From: Dehalogenimonas sp. W
GTDB lineage: Bacteria; Chloroflexota; Dehalococcoidia; Dehalococcoidales; Dehalococcoidaceae
Length of the DNA stretch: 64,000 nt
NCBI RefSeq assembly: GCF_037094495.1
Contig: NZ_CP146612.1
Span: 1,240,001 to 1,304,000 of the forward strand
Reading direction: 5' to 3'
Shown here: piece after piece, positions 13,705 through 37,540 of the stretch
Position numbering within the stretch: the first letter of the stretch is position 1
Layout of the letters: each line of letters opens with the position of its first letter
Translations under genes and position numbers: made by a program
The notes under the pieces: generated by a model
What the model saw: the letters and a program-made list of their open reading frames with translations, nothing else
Told to the model about the DNA's origin: nothing
Database searches by the model: none

Positions 13705-14855
13705 GACAGTAGGCCTTCCGTCGGGTGCAGTTCCCGGCTGACCTTGCGCAGGAAATGGCTGATAAGATGGGTTTCTTCATCCACCTCCAGCAAAAAAGCA
13801 TCGTGACCGTAGGTGGAATTGATTTCGCAGTAGGTCACGTCAATTCCGGCGAGCTTACAGCCGCGCACCAGTTCCCGGGATTGATGCGCCGGGTACAGCC
13901 AGTCGCTCTTAAAGGCCAGCACCATAAAATGAATATTTCGGGCCACGGCCAGCGAATCCGGCAGGGACTTTTGTCCGGCCAGGTCGTACAGGTCAATCGC
14001 CCGGGTCAGGTATAAATATGAATTGGCGTCAAAACGTTTAACGAAAGAGTCGCCCTTATATTGCAGGTATCCGGCTACTTCAAAGTCGGTGCCCAGCTTG
14101 GCCCCGTCCTCCCGGCGTTCACGAAAACGCCGGCCGAATTTATCGGCCATGGACGCATCACTCATATAGGTGATATGACCAACCATCCGGGCCATCGCCA
14201 AACCGCGTTCGGGTGCTTTGCCGTCATAATAGCGTCCGTTGTTGAAGTGCGGGTCAGCCATGATGGACTGCCGGCCGACCTCATTAAAGGCTATCTGCTG
14301 CGGTGAGTGGTGGGTGGTCGTAGCGATAGCGATAACCGAGTTTAATCGTTCCGGATGATTGACCGCCCAGACCAGCGCCTGCATGCCGCCCATACTGCCG
14401 CCGGCCACCGCCAGTAGTTTGTCTATTCCGAAATGCTTCACCAGTTCCAGTTGCGCCTCCACCATGTCGCCGATGGTGATCAGCGGAAAATCCAGGCCGT
14501 ACGGCTCGCCGGTAGCCGGATTGGGTGAAGCCGGGCCAGTAGAACCCTGACAACCGCCGATGACGTTGGAGCAAATGATGAAATGCTCATCAGTGTTGAA
14601 AGCCTTGCCGGGTCCGACCATGGTGTCCCACCAGCCGGGTTTGCCGGTGGCGGCGTTTAATCCGGCGACATGGGCATCGCCGGTCAGCGCATGGCAGATT
14701 AACACCGCGTTGGAACGGTCTGCGTTCAATTGCCCGTAGGTCTCATAAGCCAGTATTACCGGCGCAATCACTTCGCCGGATTCCAGCGTCAACCGGTCAA
14801 TGGTAATGTATTGGGTCTTGACCAGTTCGGTAATTTTGGATGGTTGTTCGTTCAT
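13701..14855 (-). CDS. metX: Homoserine O-acetyltransferase
   Basis: 384 residues, alpha/beta-hydrolase fold. The nucleophile is in GGSMGGMQ, the catalytic Asp in KSDWLYP and the His in STYGHDAFLLE. It transfers an acyl group from acetyl-CoA (or succinyl-CoA; MetX specificity cannot be read reliably by eye) to homoserine, making the substrate for the MetY encoded 11 bp upstream. Confidence 0.93.
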   Translation of the reverse strand: MNEQPSKITELVKTQYITIDRLTLESGEVIAPVILAYETYGQLNADRSNAVLICHALTGDAHVAGLNAATGKPGWWDTMVGPGKAFNTDEHFIICSNVIGGCQGSTGPASPNPATGEPYGLDFPLITIGDMVEAQLELVKHFGIDKLLAVAGGSMGGMQALVWAVNHPERLNSVIAIATTTHHSPQQIAFNEVGRQSIMADPHFNNGRYYDGKAPERGLAMARMVGHITYMSDASMADKFGRRFRERREDGAKLGTDFEVAGYLQYKGDSFVKRFDANSYLYLTRAIDLYDLAGQKSLPDSLAVARNIHFMVLAFKSDWLYPAHQSRELVRGCKLAGIDVTYCEINSTYGHDAFLLEVDEETHLISHFLRKVSRELHPTEGLLS

Positions 14856-14866
14856 GGCTTCACGCC

Positions 14867-16183
<1,317 letters not shown>

Positions 16184-32275: not shown

Positions 32276-32352
32276 GGTGGGTATAGCCGAGTGGTTAAGG
32301 CGTCAGGTTGTGGCCCTGAAGATCGTGGGTTCGATCCCCACTACCCACCCCA
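32276..32352 (+). tRNA. tRNA-His (GTG)
   Basis: The anticodon loop TTGTGGC gives GTG. The acceptor GTGGGTA/TACCCAC carries the extra 5' G (32276) opposite discriminator C (32349), the identity element of tRNA-His. CCA is encoded. Confidence 0.97.
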
Positions 32353-32366
32353 GTTTGCTTTTCCCC

Positions 32367-32442
32367 GCGCCTGTAGCTCAGTGGATAGAGCATTGGTCTT
32401 CGGAACCAAGGGCCGTGGGTTCGAATCCCTCCAGGCGCGCCA
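32367..32442 (+). tRNA. tRNA-Arg (TCG), integration site
   Basis: 76 nt. The acceptor GCGCCTG/CAGGCGC, anticodon loop CTTCGGA (anticodon TCG), T loop TTCGAAT, discriminator G and encoded CCA are intact. From loop position 32 (32398) to 32444 the sequence is repeated exactly at 34795-34841, so this gene served as the attachment site of the following element and remains functional. Confidence 0.97.
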
Positions 32443-32444
32443 GT
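32398..32444 (+). repeat. Left attachment-site repeat (inside tRNA-Arg)
   Basis: A 47-bp sequence from the anticodon loop through CCA plus two bases, identical to 34795-34841. Confidence 0.9.
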
Positions 32445-32859
32445 ATTAAAGAAAAAATTTGCCCTCTTCTTGGATTCGGGAGAGGGCTTTTGTGTTCTTG
32501 CTAAGAATATCCTAACAGAGGGCTTCAATTAGGCGAATGGATTTTGGTTATAACTAGGTATCCAAACCTTTAGCAGGCGTATCCTGTAAGCCCCGGTTCT
32601 ACCGTGCCTCATGTAACCGGTTTCCTTGGTGTCCACATTTGTGGAATAATTTATTCCAATTGTGTGTCACTGTATTTGGCCGGAGAGGTTGCCGTCGATT
32701 TTGGAGAATACTTACTCATCATCCCATAGAACCTCACCTTCAAGTATTTATAGCGTCATCTGGCGCTTTCAAAATGATTGTTGACAAGTAATTCGGAATC
32801 AGGAGGAACCACAGTGAATCAAGAATTGCCGTTATTTTGTTGAATGACGATATAAGTGG
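32443..32859. other. Gene-free left end of the island
   Basis: It begins with a terminator hairpin GCCCTCT/AGAGGGC (32461-32487) followed by TTTTGTG, ending the tRNA transcript. A 17-nt palindrome TGGAATAA-t-TTATTCCA lies at 32642-32658. AGGAGG (32801-32806) stands before GTG 32814, but the frame stops after nine codons (MNQELPLFC). This looks like the leftover start of a lost gene. I see no other coding signal. Confidence 0.5.
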
Positions 32860-33339
32860 CTAAGGATATAGTCCTCTCATTCGCCAAACAAAACACGTAT
32901 AACTCTCAAAATCAACATTTAGTTCGCCGCAAACGTCTGGTATCTTTTTTTGGACTCCAGTTTTTCGTTTATCAGATACCTCGCAAGACACCACAGTACC
33001 TTTCGATACGATGGCATGAGAGATAATATATGGATCAGCCTTCCCACCCAATAACTCAAGGTCAACATCGGATAGGTCATCACCATAATTTCGGAGTACG
33101 GTGGGAAGTGCGGATACACACTTAGCGCCGGATTCCTTCTTCAGATTCGTATGTCTTGATAAAAACTTCTTCAGGCCGTCTTTTTTACAGTCAATTTCCT
33201 CAAGGACTTCCTCTGGAATTATAATCTCTTCATTCGAAGCAAGGTTGTCAAACCATGACCAAAAGGCTTTATTTGGCCCATTAGGGGGAAAATCATCTTT
33301 GTAAGCGTGAATCAAACAGCATGTGTCAAAAATATACAT
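32860..33339 (-). CDS. DUF4411 family protein (PIN-like nuclease fold)
   Basis: About 159 residues. It starts MYIFDTCCLIHAYKD, with the first PIN acidic residue at D5. Later acidic positions are in EEVLEEIDCKKDGLKKF, GGKADPYIISHAI and CEVSDKRKTGVQKKIPDVC. This is the DUF4411 pattern, related to PIN/VapC RNase toxins. The start at 33339 is 4 bp after the ImmA-type stop; the frame extends upstream without conserved sequence. By analogy it would be the toxin or effector of the pair, with the peptidase/XRE protein as controlling partner; activity is inferred. Confidence 0.82.
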   Translation of the reverse strand: MYIFDTCCLIHAYKDDFPPNGPNKAFWSWFDNLASNEEIIIPEEVLEEIDCKKDGLKKFLSRHTNLKKESGAKCVSALPTVLRNYGDDLSDVDLELLGGKADPYIISHAIVSKGTVVSCEVSDKRKTGVQKKIPDVCGELNVDFESYTCFVWRMRGLYP

Positions 33340-33343
33340 CGCC

Positions 33344-34579
33344 CTATCCAAAAACTTGGTTGAAAGCATCTATTTTTACTCGTATGAGACCGGATACTTC
33401 GATTTCAGAGATTAGGCCATCTCTTGCAGCACTGGATATGGTATGCAATAACGCACTCCCAAGTGCGTATTTCATCCTTTTGTTGTACCCAGGCCCAGAG
33501 TCTTTTTTCCTTTTCCGCTTTTCTTGAATGAATTCTTTGATTTGTTTCCATTCTTCCTGATATGCATCATACCAGCGCCAGTATTCTGATGAACTAATCT
33601 TATTTAATTGAAATAGTTTAATTGCAACAACAATCGGACTCACCTTTGCTAGTTTTGCAATTCGTCTTATTACAGCGTCGTTATCATATCCGATTGTGAA
33701 TAATTCCCAATCTTTAAGTATCGCATCTTCAGGGACAAGAAACTCCGATGCTACAAGGTCGCAAAATTTCTCAGTAGAAGGCTTTTCTGATGGTGCCTCT
33801 ACACTCCAAATATCTGTGTTGGAAATACACGCGTCTCCAAGCCAAAGATGGGTCAGTTCGTGAATGAGAGTAAAAATATTCGCCGTCTTGGTGTCGTTGG
33901 GATTAATGACTACGAAAGGTGCCATGGGGTCACTAAGTGTAAAGCCCCTGAAGACCTCAGGCGCAAAGTCAGTATGATAACTACCAAGATTACCTTGAAA
34001 AATGACAAAAATACCCTTAGACTCAGCTTTTTGACGGATTAAGTTAAGTTTTCCATCGATGGTTTTTGATTTAATATATCCAGTTGGTTCAAAGCCAAGA
34101 TATTCCCGTATGATTACAGCGAGCGATTTTGGACTGAGGCTAGTTTTGGCTGTTCCGATGAAACCAAGAGGGGGAGTGTTTGAAGAAATGAGTAAGTCAC
34201 GAGTTATTTTTTGAATCCCTTCAATTCTTCGGATCAAAGCGGAGAACTCAGCTTCAAATGATTCCTGAGCCGATTCGTATTTACCAAAAACTCGAAAATC
34301 TACTAAGCCCCGCTCCTTTTTGGGAGGGGCTGTCAAAAAAAATGTTAATACTGTCCTGCGATAAGCGTGAGCTAGTTTTTTAAGTTGGCTGAACGTGGGT
34401 GTCTCGATGCCATTTTCCCAACTCTCCAGCCTAAGAGCAGGGCTCAAACTTTCTGTTTTGATATTAGCGCCATGCCCGGCTTTCATTCCTGCTTTAAAGG
34501 CAGCACGAGTAGGAGTGAGTTTTGCTTGTAGTCTGGCCCACTTCAACATATTTGGATTAATTGGGATTTCTTGTTTCAT
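33344..34579 (-). CDS. XRE-family HTH protein with ImmA/IrrE zinc metallopeptidase domain
   Basis: About 411 residues. N-terminal helix-turn-helix (MLKWARLQAKLTPTRAAFKAG ... LRLESWENGIETPTFSQLKKLA). Middle/C-terminal ImmA/IrrE (COG2856) domain with IFTLIHELTHLWLG (HExxH at about 240-244) and a downstream FCDLVASEFLVP glutamate region completing zinc binding. Relatives cleave repressors (ImmA) or regulators (DdrO, by IrrE). Promoter on the minus strand: TTGCTA, 17 bp, TATAAT (plus 34634-34639, 34611-34616). Adjacency to DUF4411 suggests a toxin-antitoxin-like or defence module. Confidence 0.88.
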   Translation of the reverse strand: MKQEIPINPNMLKWARLQAKLTPTRAAFKAGMKAGHGANIKTESLSPALRLESWENGIETPTFSQLKKLAHAYRRTVLTFFLTAPPKKERGLVDFRVFGKYESAQESFEAEFSALIRRIEGIQKITRDLLISSNTPPLGFIGTAKTSLSPKSLAVIIREYLGFEPTGYIKSKTIDGKLNLIRQKAESKGIFVIFQGNLGSYHTDFAPEVFRGFTLSDPMAPFVVINPNDTKTANIFTLIHELTHLWLGDACISNTDIWSVEAPSEKPSTEKFCDLVASEFLVPEDAILKDWELFTIGYDNDAVIRRIAKLAKVSPIVVAIKLFQLNKISSSEYWRWYDAYQEEWKQIKEFIQEKRKRKKDSGPGYNKRMKYALGSALLHTISSAARDGLISEIEVSGLIRVKIDAFNQVFG

Positions 34580-34940
34580 AAGAATGTTAGATTGCACACT
34601 CGTGCTGGGGATTATAGTTCAACAAATACTAAATAGCAAGAAAGATTAAGGTCTATTACCGCTAACAAAATGCTTACAGATGGAGCACTACAAAAAACTG
34701 AATTGCAATATTTTACGAATAAATTAGGCTAATGATAGCAAGAAAACAAACTTGATTGGTTGTCCCTGAGGCCTTGCGGTAATGTTCTTTCGGACTTCGG
34801 AACCAAGGGCCGTGGGTTCGAATCCCTCCAGGCGCGCCAGTTTTCCTATCTTAATTTCTTCATCAGTTACGCCCGTTAAAGGGCTGGTTTTACCTGACCG
34901 TTAATTTGCCTCGTTACTCACCTCAGGGTACACTTTAGCC
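34580..34940. other. Right end of the island and attachment repeat
   Basis: Contains the minus-strand promoter of the ImmA-type gene (34611-34639), about 150 bp of A+T-rich sequence with no gene seen, the right 47-bp repeat (34795-34841), then chromosomal sequence with the arfB promoter. Confidence 0.6.
34795..34841 (+). repeat. Right attachment-site repeat (partial tRNA-Arg copy)
   Basis: Exact copy of 32398-32444. It lacks the 5' acceptor strand and D arm, so it is not a tRNA gene. Confidence 0.9.
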
Positions 34941-34941
34941 G
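34906..34941 (+). promoter_or_regulatory. arfB promoter, possibly leaderless
   Basis: TTGCCT (34906-34911), 17 bp, TACACT (34929-34934), then 6 nt to GTG 34941. No Shine-Dalgarno site is present. Confidence 0.5.
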
Positions 34942-35366
34942 TGATACCGATTACCTCCGCCATTGCTATTGCCGAAACCGAGATTACTGAATCTTTTGTC
35001 CGGGCTTCCGGACCGGGTGGGCAGAACGTCAACAAATTGGCCACCGCGGTGCAGTTGCGGTTTGACCTGGTTAATTCCCCGTCGCTGCCGGATGACATAA
35101 AGGCTCGGCTCAGGGATTTGGCTGGTAGCCGGGTTACGGAAGACGGCGTACTTATTATTGACTCCCGGCGTTTTCGCACCCAGAAGCGTAACCGGGAAGA
35201 CGCGATGGAGCGGCTGGTAGCAATTATACGTCAGGCGGCTCAGCCGCCGCCGATTCGTTATAAAACCAGACCGACCCTGGCTTCCAAATTGCGCCGCTTA
35301 GACAGCAAACGGCGAGGCGCCGACATCAAGCGCGGGCGTGGCCGGGTGGACCCGGGACGTGAATAA
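34941..35366 (+). CDS. arfB: ArfB-like peptidyl-tRNA hydrolase (ribosome rescue)
   Basis: 141 residues. The GGQ motif (residues 26-28, in RASGPGGQNVNK) catalyses peptide release. The basic C-terminal tail (YKTRPTLASKLRRLDSKRRGADIKRGRGR) is the part that enters the empty mRNA channel of stalled ribosomes in ArfB/YaeJ. Length and tail separate it from RF1/RF2. It rescues ribosomes lacking a stop codon. Confidence 0.92.
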   Translation: MIPITSAIAIAETEITESFVRASGPGGQNVNKLATAVQLRFDLVNSPSLPDDIKARLRDLAGSRVTEDGVLIIDSRRFRTQKRNREDAMERLVAIIRQAAQPPPIRYKTRPTLASKLRRLDSKRRGADIKRGRGRVDPGRE

Positions 35367-35466
35367 CCGGGTTTGCACTGCTGCTCGCTCCATATGATAA
35401 TAGTGTGCCGAACGAAACAAGTTTTATTTAGCAGGCTTTGGCTGCTCTGAGGAGATACTTCGCCCG

Positions 35467-37263
35467 ATGGCCCACGTTAATATCCAGAATGTTTCACTGA
35501 GTTTCGGCGGGTATCCGCTGTTTGAGGGCATTAACCTTACGGTGGAGCGCGGTGAAAAAGTGGCCCTGGTCGGGCGCAACGGGTCAGGAAAATCCACCTT
35601 GCTCAAATTGATTGCCGGGCTGATTCAACCGCATTCGGGCAGCATTGCCGTCCAAAAAGACATACGGGTGGCTTACCTGGACCAGTTGGTGCCGGGGGAA
35701 ACGCCCGGCTCCCTGTTTGAGGTGGTTAAATCCGGTTCAGGCCGGCTGCACCACCTGACGGAATCGGAATTGGAACGCAAGGCCGGGAAAATAATCTCCC
35801 AATTCGGGCTGGACGGTGACTGGGTCTTTAATGAACTTTCAGCCGGGCTGAAGCGTCAAGCCCTGCTGGCTAAAGCCCTTATGGCCGAGCCGGATATTCT
35901 GCTGTTAGACGAACCTACCAACCATTTGGACATTGATTCCATTAAACGCCTGGAAGATACCGTGTTGAAGTTTCGCGGTTCGGTCATACTGGTCACCCAT
36001 GACCGTGAATTTTTGCAGCAGATTGCTACCCGCATCGTAGAGATTGACCGTGGCAAACTCTTTGACCAGACCTGTGACTATCAGACCTTTCTGGAACGCC
36101 GTGAGGCGGCTGAAGAAATTGAAGCCACCGAAAATGTTTTATTTGATAAAAAGCTGGAGAAGGAAGAGGTCTGGATCCGTACCGGCATCAAAGCCCGGCG
36201 CACCCGGAATGAAGGTCGGGTGCGGGCTTTGGAAAAAATGCGGCAGACCCGACAGTCCCGCCGGCTGAAGCCGGGAGCGGTCAGGCTGACCAACCAGAAA
36301 GCCGTAAACTCCGGCAATCTGGTCGTTGAAGTTGAAGACGTCAATTTCAGCTATGAAGGCATGCCTGTAATCAAGGGTTTTAACACCACCATAATGAAAG
36401 GTGACCGGGTCGGCATCCTCGGCCCCAACGGCAGCGGCAAGACCACGTTGTTGCGCTTGCTGCTGGGGGAACTGCAGCAGGCCTCCGGCACCATCCGCCT
36501 GGGCACTAATCTGGAAATAAGTTATTCCGACCAATTGCGCGGACAACTGGATGAAACCAGGACCTTAATGGAGAATGTTTGCGAGGGCAGTGATACAGTT
36601 ACCATCAACGGCCGGTCGCGCAATATTTATGGTTATTTACAGGATTTTGAGTTTTCTCGTGAACAGGCACTATCTTACGTCTCCTGCCTTTCGGGCGGGG
36701 AACGTAACCGGCTGGTGCTGGCCAGACTGTTTACCCGTCCGTCAAACCTGCTGGTGCTGGATGAACCGACCAACGATCTTGACCTGGAAACACTGGAAAT
36801 CCTGGAGGACTACCTGCTGAAATACCAGGGCACCATCCTGATGGTCAGCCATGACCGGGCTTTTATCAACAATGTCGTCACCAGCACCCTGGTTTTTGAG
36901 GGTGACGGCACGGTTAATGAGTATATCGGCGGTTATGATGACTGGCTGCGCCAGCGGCCGGTTGATGAAAAGCCTGGCAAAGCAGCGACATCAAAAACAG
37001 TGTCGGAAAAACCCCGGCGCCAACCGGTGAAATTCGGCTTCCGCCAGCAAAAAGAATTGGAAACCTTGCCGCACACCATCCAGGCACTGGAAACAGAGCA
37101 TGAGGCGCTGTATCAGGAAATGGGTAACCCCGCCATCTACAAGAATGACGTCTCGGCACTCACCGCCAGACAGGACCGAATCAAAGAGATTGACCAGTTA
37201 CTGGCTTCGCATTATGCCCGGTGGGAGGAGTTGGAGCAACTGCACGCTGAAGCCGCTCAATGA
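35467..37263 (+). CDS. uup: ABC-F family ATPase (Uup-like)
   Basis: 598 residues, two nucleotide-binding domains and no membrane segment. Walker A sites are GRNGSGKST and GPNGSGKTT, Walker B sites LLLDEPTNHLD and LVLDEPTNDLD. The second signature is LSGGERNR but the first reads LSAGLKRQ. A linker of charged helices joins the domains, and the C-terminus (about residues 530-595) is a predicted coiled coil typical of Uup. ABC-F proteins act on ribosomes; Uup also affects DNA structure processing. The 3' end overlaps a convergent GIY-YIG gene. Confidence 0.9.
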   Translation: MAHVNIQNVSLSFGGYPLFEGINLTVERGEKVALVGRNGSGKSTLLKLIAGLIQPHSGSIAVQKDIRVAYLDQLVPGETPGSLFEVVKSGSGRLHHLTESELERKAGKIISQFGLDGDWVFNELSAGLKRQALLAKALMAEPDILLLDEPTNHLDIDSIKRLEDTVLKFRGSVILVTHDREFLQQIATRIVEIDRGKLFDQTCDYQTFLERREAAEEIEATENVLFDKKLEKEEVWIRTGIKARRTRNEGRVRALEKMRQTRQSRRLKPGAVRLTNQKAVNSGNLVVEVEDVNFSYEGMPVIKGFNTTIMKGDRVGILGPNGSGKTTLLRLLLGELQQASGTIRLGTNLEISYSDQLRGQLDETRTLMENVCEGSDTVTINGRSRNIYGYLQDFEFSREQALSYVSCLSGGERNRLVLARLFTRPSNLLVLDEPTNDLDLETLEILEDYLLKYQGTILMVSHDRAFINNVVTSTLVFEGDGTVNEYIGGYDDWLRQRPVDEKPGKAATSKTVSEKPRRQPVKFGFRQQKELETLPHTIQALETEHEALYQEMGNPAIYKNDVSALTARQDRIKEIDQLLASHYARWEELEQLHAEAAQ

Positions 37264-37540
37264 GACTGTCAAGCCGGTGATCATCCGTAATCAGTTTTTC
37301 CTTTTGATGCTTAGGTAGTTTTTTTACCTTGAGCTCCACCCGTAATGCCAGGCTTCGGGGGCCGATATTTTTTCGGAACACAATGGTAAGCGGCCCGCGG
37401 CCCCTCAGGTATTTCGCCCCGGCGGGGCCTTTCTGCCGGTGTTCGGCAAATCGCCGGTCAACATCAAGGGCGATGCCGGTATATAAACTACCGTCACCGC
37501 ATCTGATCAAGTACAGGTGCCAGGTCATGGATTCAGTCAT
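37181..37540 (-). CDS. GIY-YIG nuclease-domain protein (UvrC N-terminal-like)
   Basis: 119 residues. The core runs WHLYLIRCGDGSLYTGIALDVDRRFAEHRQKGPAGAKYLRGRGPLTIVF, giving the YxI...YTG motif, catalytic Arg and EH of small GIY-YIG proteins (YhbQ/YazA type). The last 25 residues (AVAPTPPTGHNAKPVTGQSL) are proline-rich, lie outside the domain and are encoded opposite the uup 3' end (83-bp overlap). An internal start at 37528 is possible. Confidence 0.85.
   Translation of the reverse strand: MTESMTWHLYLIRCGDGSLYTGIALDVDRRFAEHRQKGPAGAKYLRGRGPLTIVFRKNIGPRSLALRVELKVKKLPKHQKEKLITDDHRLDSLIERLQRAVAPTPPTGHNAKPVTGQSL

Follow-up and report, generated by a model that had tools for sequence, protein, structure and literature searches.

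Pairs of genes encoding a COG2856-Xre protein and a PIN-domain protein were predicted to be toxin-antitoxin systems by Makarova 2009 (PMC2701414). In NetFlax, ImmA-PIN pairs are listed beside RosmerTA, and the ImmA node D25 occurs with PIN-like domains (PMC10440598). In the VapBC52 system, VapB52, for which CapP and IrrE were named as relatives, binds VapC52 with a 1:2 stoichiometry and, in response to ssDNA, removes its own N-terminal domain by cleavage close to an FR motif; VapC52 cleaves tRNAs in the anticodon or variable loops and protects against a mycobacteriophage (PMC13273310). As far as islands are concerned, a definition of cis-mobilizable elements (CIME) is available (PMC5704250), and 15 Dehalococcoides islands located at ssrA (tmRNA) and lacking an integration module were proposed to be CIME (PMC3146451).

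We analysed a stretch of 64,000 nucleotides of Dehalogenimonas sp. W (hereafter the window), in which an island of about 2.4 kb lies between a tRNA-Arg(TCG) gene and a second copy of its 3' end. This island is very probably the remnant of an integrative element, the integrase of which has decayed while a toxin-antitoxin pair was kept intact. The features of the locus are the following.

32277-32352, plus strand: tRNA-His(GTG), a resident gene next to the target on its upstream side (ARAGORN and Rfam)
32367-32442, plus strand: tRNA-Arg(TCG), integration target, left intact (ARAGORN and Rfam)
32398-32444, plus strand: attL core, from the anticodon loop to just past the CCA, 47/47 identical to 34795-34841
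32455-32857, minus strand: fossil tyrosine integrase, of which the C-terminal part is left, matching residues about 164-295 of a relative of 309 aa, from DNA match, tblastn and frameshift alignment
32461-32487, plus strand: terminator-like stem with a T run, downstream of the tRNAs and inside the island (a match to the consensus only, not exceeding that of shuffled sequences)
32860-33339, minus strand: DUF4411 PIN-domain predicted toxin, 159 aa from ATG 33339, with a longer ORF from ATG 33369 (Pfam PF14367, 1.5e-23)
33344-34579, minus strand: XRE and IrrE/ImmA-type (M78) peptidase, predicted antitoxin (Pfam PF06114, 4.8e-13)
34611-34639, minus strand: promoter-like TTGCTA-17-TATAAT before the gene pair (consensus match only)
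34795-34841, plus strand: attR core, the displaced tRNA-Arg 3' end (47-bp match to the attL core)

The island and its tRNA-Arg site

An exact 47-bp repeat of the tRNA-Arg end about 2.4 kb downstream, noticed in an earlier sequence-only reading, was borne out (32398-32444 = 34795-34841). The core lies inside two slightly longer segments, 32395-32447 and 34792-34844, which are identical at 51/53 positions. In the single-contig genome of 1,772,240 bp this att repeat is present in two copies only (E 5.7e-19 for the second copy), and the remaining matches, at 75-80%, correspond to different tRNAs; an exact search of viral contigs with the att core gave no match. The same reading described the interior as A+T-rich, and in fact its G+C content is about 41%, as compared to about 54% outside. 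Two intact ORFs are found in the island, both on the minus strand, encoding an XRE plus Peptidase_M78 protein and a DUF4411/PIN protein; the 4-bp gap attributed to the two genes is correct if DUF4411 starts at ATG 33339. The claim that the island carries only these two genes holds for intact ORFs, none being present apart from the pair, and fails for the interior as a whole, which also contains an integrase gene broken by stops and frameshifts (32455-32857). An inverted 27-bp near-repeat (32489-32515 / 34724-34750; 7/2000 shuffles) was considered as a pair of arm sites and set aside, since its left copy lies inside the coding region of the fossil integrase.

The sequence-only reading proposed a comparison of this locus across Dehalogenimonas genomes for empty or differently filled sites. 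The tRNA-His/tRNA-Arg pair is kept in relatives, and in three genomes of the same genus (G001, G005 and G006) it is present without the island; the genes upstream of the tRNA pair are syntenic in G001 and G005. The right flank (34941-37540, encoding an arfB-like protein, an ABC-F ATPase and a GIY-YIG protein) is missing at the tRNA-Arg locus of the same three genomes. The variable region therefore exceeds the att-bounded island and, since the right flank also varies among relatives, the absence of the island was read at the tRNA pair rather than from a precise empty-site alignment. Elsewhere in the class, a second copy of this tRNA-Arg 3' half encloses an interior of 184 bp in G003, 1.29 kb in G049, 6.35 kb in G309 and 8.4 kb in G449; in the G309 and G449 elements an intact integrase adjoins the tRNA. 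These duplications indicate that tRNA-Arg(TCG) is a recurrent target.

Some of these sites have features of their own. In G003 (L064), the tRNA-Arg gene at 14912-14987 is accompanied by an exact second 3' half at 14684-14728, and the 184-bp interior, which contains a 12-bp-period repeat (TGTCGTCTTTC-TTGTCGTCTTT), represents an almost empty scar. The 1.29-kb island at tRNA-Arg(TCG) of G049 (C58, 4901-6194; L145) contains one trypsin-like gene (Trypsin_2, phrog_7688), has pristine ends with no trace of an integrase, and carries at both ends a 67-bp arm-like direct repeat containing the tandem TTTGCTATTCCG-TTTGCTATTC; this island would be the stronger case for an element truly lacking an integrase. 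A 22-bp motif, TTTGCTATTCCGTTTGCTATTC, which had no control matches, was found in L325, L330 (G004), L326, L328, L329 and L332. It identifies an arm module, conserved over about 160 bp, in front of the displaced 3' ends of tRNA genes in five genomes. The site is tRNA-Arg(TCG) and, in G004, the end of a different tRNA, before which the module is found twice, at positions about 120 kb from each other.

A homologous gene pair in G001 lies at a chromosomal locus without an adjoining tRNA, as would be expected if the pair simply belonged to the chromosome and the repeat had arisen by duplication of the tRNA. This explanation has to face the exact 47-bp repeat, the A+T-rich interior, the absence of the island in relatives and the integrase fossil, and we regard it as extremely improbable.

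The gene pair

Both proteins encoded in the island are homologous to the chains of a solved complex (PDB 9vzy), with profile E values of 2e-49 and 3e-25. When single sequences were used, the antitoxin matched 9vzy_A with E 1.9e-12 and the DUF4411 protein, which was also matched as PIN_4, gave E 3.4e-7 with 9vzy_D. The related entry 9vzz has a D-to-A toxin chain, which fits the VapC52 D6A construct of PMC13273310, and we infer that 9vzy and 9vzz belong to that study. The Pfam match of the antitoxin to HTH_3 is weak; in PADLOC this protein matched RmrA (3.5e-10) and also capP. A possible earlier start of its gene is GTG at 34597.

In an alignment of 28 antitoxin sequences (417-aa numbering), residues H246, E247 and H250 of the HELTH zinc site were present in 28/28, and position 276 was E in 27, as in our protein, and D in 1. 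The DFR motif at 100-102, between the N-terminal and the peptidase domains, was similarly conserved (D100 and R102 in 28/28; position 101 is F in 24 and L in 4). The switch position of VapB52, C229, corresponds to Ser259, with Ser in 24/28 and Cys in 0/28 of the aligned sequences; a Cys two residues before Ser259 is found in this protein only. As for the toxin, the PIN acidic tetrad (D15, E58, D112 and E130 in the 169-aa numbering) is intact, as it is in 26/26 relatives. Structural comparison of the AlphaFold models, made via the C.Csp231I, BswR, CapP, IrrE and VapC chains, showed similarity of the antitoxin to C.Csp231I and BswR in its N-terminal domain and to CapP and IrrE in its middle domain, while the DUF4411 model (pLDDT 88) matches VapC structures with Z 10-13.

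DUF4411 was found in 37 of 400 genomes of the phylum, nearly always adjoining the peptidase gene. Conversely, at loci found with the antitoxin (peptidase) profile alone, DUF4411 is directly downstream of the antitoxin in 72/79 genome loci and 55/57 viral contigs (together 127/136). The antitoxin gene comes first, and the median intergenic gap over 156 pairs is -1 nt. No close relative of the window antitoxin was found in the viral contigs. This co-conservation, together with the solved complex of homologues, supports the earlier suggestion of a toxin-antitoxin or defence module. Judged by sequence, the pair is a predicted toxin-antitoxin module of the recently described VapBC52 type and, by analogy, it probably serves as an anti-phage module.

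Any tRNA was nearby in 15 of 169 pair loci; therefore, the pair is a general cargo, and the link with a tRNA is particular to the locus described here. One convincing second case is L224 (311-4689, Campylobacterota contig JAADIZ010000050.1), where the same pair is flanked by a tRNA-Ser and, on the other side, by 22 nt of the 3' end of this tRNA; a transposase-like gene is present there, and no integrase was seen.

By homology with VapBC52, the antitoxin would hold and repress the toxin. A damage- or phage-derived signal, which is ssDNA in the case of VapB52, might then induce the peptidase to cut its own N-terminal domain at DFR, and the tRNA-cutting nuclease set free in this way may stop growth or block the phage. 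The peptidase had already been proposed to act as a release switch: self-cleavage is known for the homologue VapB52 (PMC13273310), in agreement with this proposal, while the cysteine switch does not carry over, being Ser259 here. With Ser259, the protein provides a naturally occurring variant of the proposed cysteine switch, which could be used to test that model.

A fossil integrase and the origin of the island

The 418 bp between the tRNA and DUF4411 contain no open gene. The first clue to a fossil was a 29-bp DNA match within an integrase gene of G047, obtained in a DNA search of 60 relatives. The minus-strand translation of this stretch (...PLRPNTVTHNWNKLFHKCGHQGNRLHEAR) corresponds to an integrase box whose last residue is the arginine of HxxR, which is retained ('RLHEAR' ending at 32602). 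In tblastn, the box was 47% identical to the integrase over 36 aa (E 2e-8, with a short subject), and a second collinear piece was found upstream of it. A frameshift-tolerant protein-to-DNA alignment over 32854-32455 gave a score of 107, as compared to a mean of 34 (s.d. 5, maximum 51) for 200 dinucleotide shuffles and to 31 for the plus strand of the same stretch. Higher scores were obtained with the integrases of G010 (128, the best tried; 29/68 identical, 2 stops, 2 frameshifts) and G041 (124; 3 stops, 3 frameshifts). The catalytic tyrosine codon reads Leu ('DILS', 32511 downwards, as we read it in the register of the G047 protein). The 3' end of the fossil faces tRNA-Arg, and an integrase gene placed against the tRNA is the usual arrangement.

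Pfam gave no match to the fossil integrase frames. No N-terminal half of the integrase was found upstream of the fossil, the similarity ending at the DUF4411 stop codon; the right flank, scanned for integrase remnants, contained none, and a profile built from 21 integrase sequences had no match in the island flanks. An intact integrase was not found within the island or at its edges. Nevertheless, the statement that the island has no integrase turned out to be incorrect, since a dead one lies at 32455-32857 with a score well above the shuffle maximum, and for this reason the island does not belong among elements lacking an integrase of their own. The loss of the integrase occurred either at this site or prior to the arrival of the island, which was not built without one.

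Integrases of the class of the fossil occur in 39/61 genomes of the order. In the genome under study, in which the sequence-only reading had proposed to search for an integrase with the same 47-bp target, none of that kind is intact, and there were zero matches at 1e-10. The PF00589 matches of this genome are XerC/D-like proteins, two short zinc-ribbon recombinases and one stop-broken fragment; the housekeeping recombinases scored 36 and 39 against the fossil, which is background. The stop-broken fragment (G000 C1:1623349-1623519, outside the window; L072) lies about 0.6 kb from tRNA-Lys(CTT) and is probably another decayed tRNA island of this genome. The two zinc-ribbon proteins (L073 and L074; G000 C1:764027 and 836970, both beyond the limits of the window) are tyrosine recombinases related to each other; each is about 237 aa long and contains the zinc ribbon (CPxCG...FCPxCG) in its interior. 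A similar one is present in G047 C29.

The missing recombinase had been taken to imply movement in trans. This implication is not supported, as the fossil inside the island removes its main premise and no intact integrase of the kind exists in the genome. A decayed remnant of cis-mobilizable type is the simplest reading, over a unit built for movement in trans. According to this scheme, an integrative element would have entered the 3' half of tRNA-Arg(TCG) by means of its tyrosine integrase, and the integrase gene beside the tRNA has lost its N-terminal part and decayed by stops and frameshifts.

The att core has 0/47 changes, as compared to an estimated 0.07-0.34 neutral substitutions per site in the integrase, a decay estimate that rests on 4-6 disabling integrase mutations and an assumed indel rate. 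Under neutral decay, the chance of zero changes in 47 bp would be about 0.0004-0.09, which is suggestive only. Since the att copies are identical and the integrase is strongly decayed, the latter was possibly dead before the present insertion. In that case, a non-autonomous tRNA element of about 2 kb, carrying the toxin-antitoxin pair and with its own integrase already dead at entry, would last have been moved in trans by the integrase of another element that recognises the same tRNA-Arg ends. The attraction of several element families to tRNA-Arg(TCG) is in line with such an event, as is the 1.29-kb island of G049 at the same site, with its pristine ends, 67-bp repeats and lack of any integrase trace. 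However, there is no cognate integrase in the genome now, recombination between the copies, chance or indel-rich mutation could keep short repeats alike, and the decay estimate has the basis given above; we consider this course of events rather unlikely.

The gene pair, which spans 1.76 kb, would be expected to contain 34-41 disabling mutations if it were as unconstrained as the integrase, and none was seen; therefore the pair is under selection or arrived later. A later arrival would mean two layers, an old element having left the fossil and the att site, and the pair having been inserted or recombined into this scar afterwards. Two layers would agree with the end of integrase similarity at the DUF4411 stop codon, beyond which none was found, and with the rarity of tRNAs near the pair elsewhere. 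However, a single att pair is present and no second junction is visible, which makes such a history decidedly unlikely in our opinion. In the preferred reading of a decayed remnant, the action of the toxin, or the cost incurred if the antitoxin were lost, would explain why the pair survived while its vehicle decayed. The island represents the ordinary fate of an integrative element at an informative stage, in which the integrase is rotting and the ends and the pair are kept. A minimal island 'without integrase' is easily misread when, as here, the cargo has outlived a decayed vehicle.

Comparison with described systems

Like CIME, the island is flanked by att sites, uses a target of the tRNA/tmRNA kind, has no working integrase or transfer gene and is a product of decay. 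It differs from the CIME comparators in being only 2.4 kb long and in its still visible integrase fossil, and no tandem partner is apparent. The Dehalococcoides ssrA islands depend on serine recombinases and have tmRNA as their target, whereas the target here is tRNA-Arg. As in the tRNA islands of Islander (PMC4383910), the intact tDNA and the displaced fragment mark the two ends; however, Islander requires an integrase gene, which is a pseudogene in our case.

With regard to the cargo, a fused XRE-zinc peptidase beside a PIN nuclease, an arrangement abundant in phages, is shared with the COG2856-Xre plus PIN pairs and with NetFlax D25/RosmerTA. RosmerTA toxins vary, and no PADLOC model matches the DUF4411 toxin of the island, unlike its antitoxin. 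With respect to VapBC52 (Rv2514c/Rv2515c), the proteins described here, known from their sequences, are remote homologues with Ser in place of the switch Cys. A module of this type, the activation of which by ssDNA was described only recently, is now placed in a Dehalococcoidia genome, and it has in common with VapBC52 the same two protein families, the zinc site with its third ligand, the DFR motif, the PIN acidic tetrad and the partnership between an XRE-peptidase and DUF4411.
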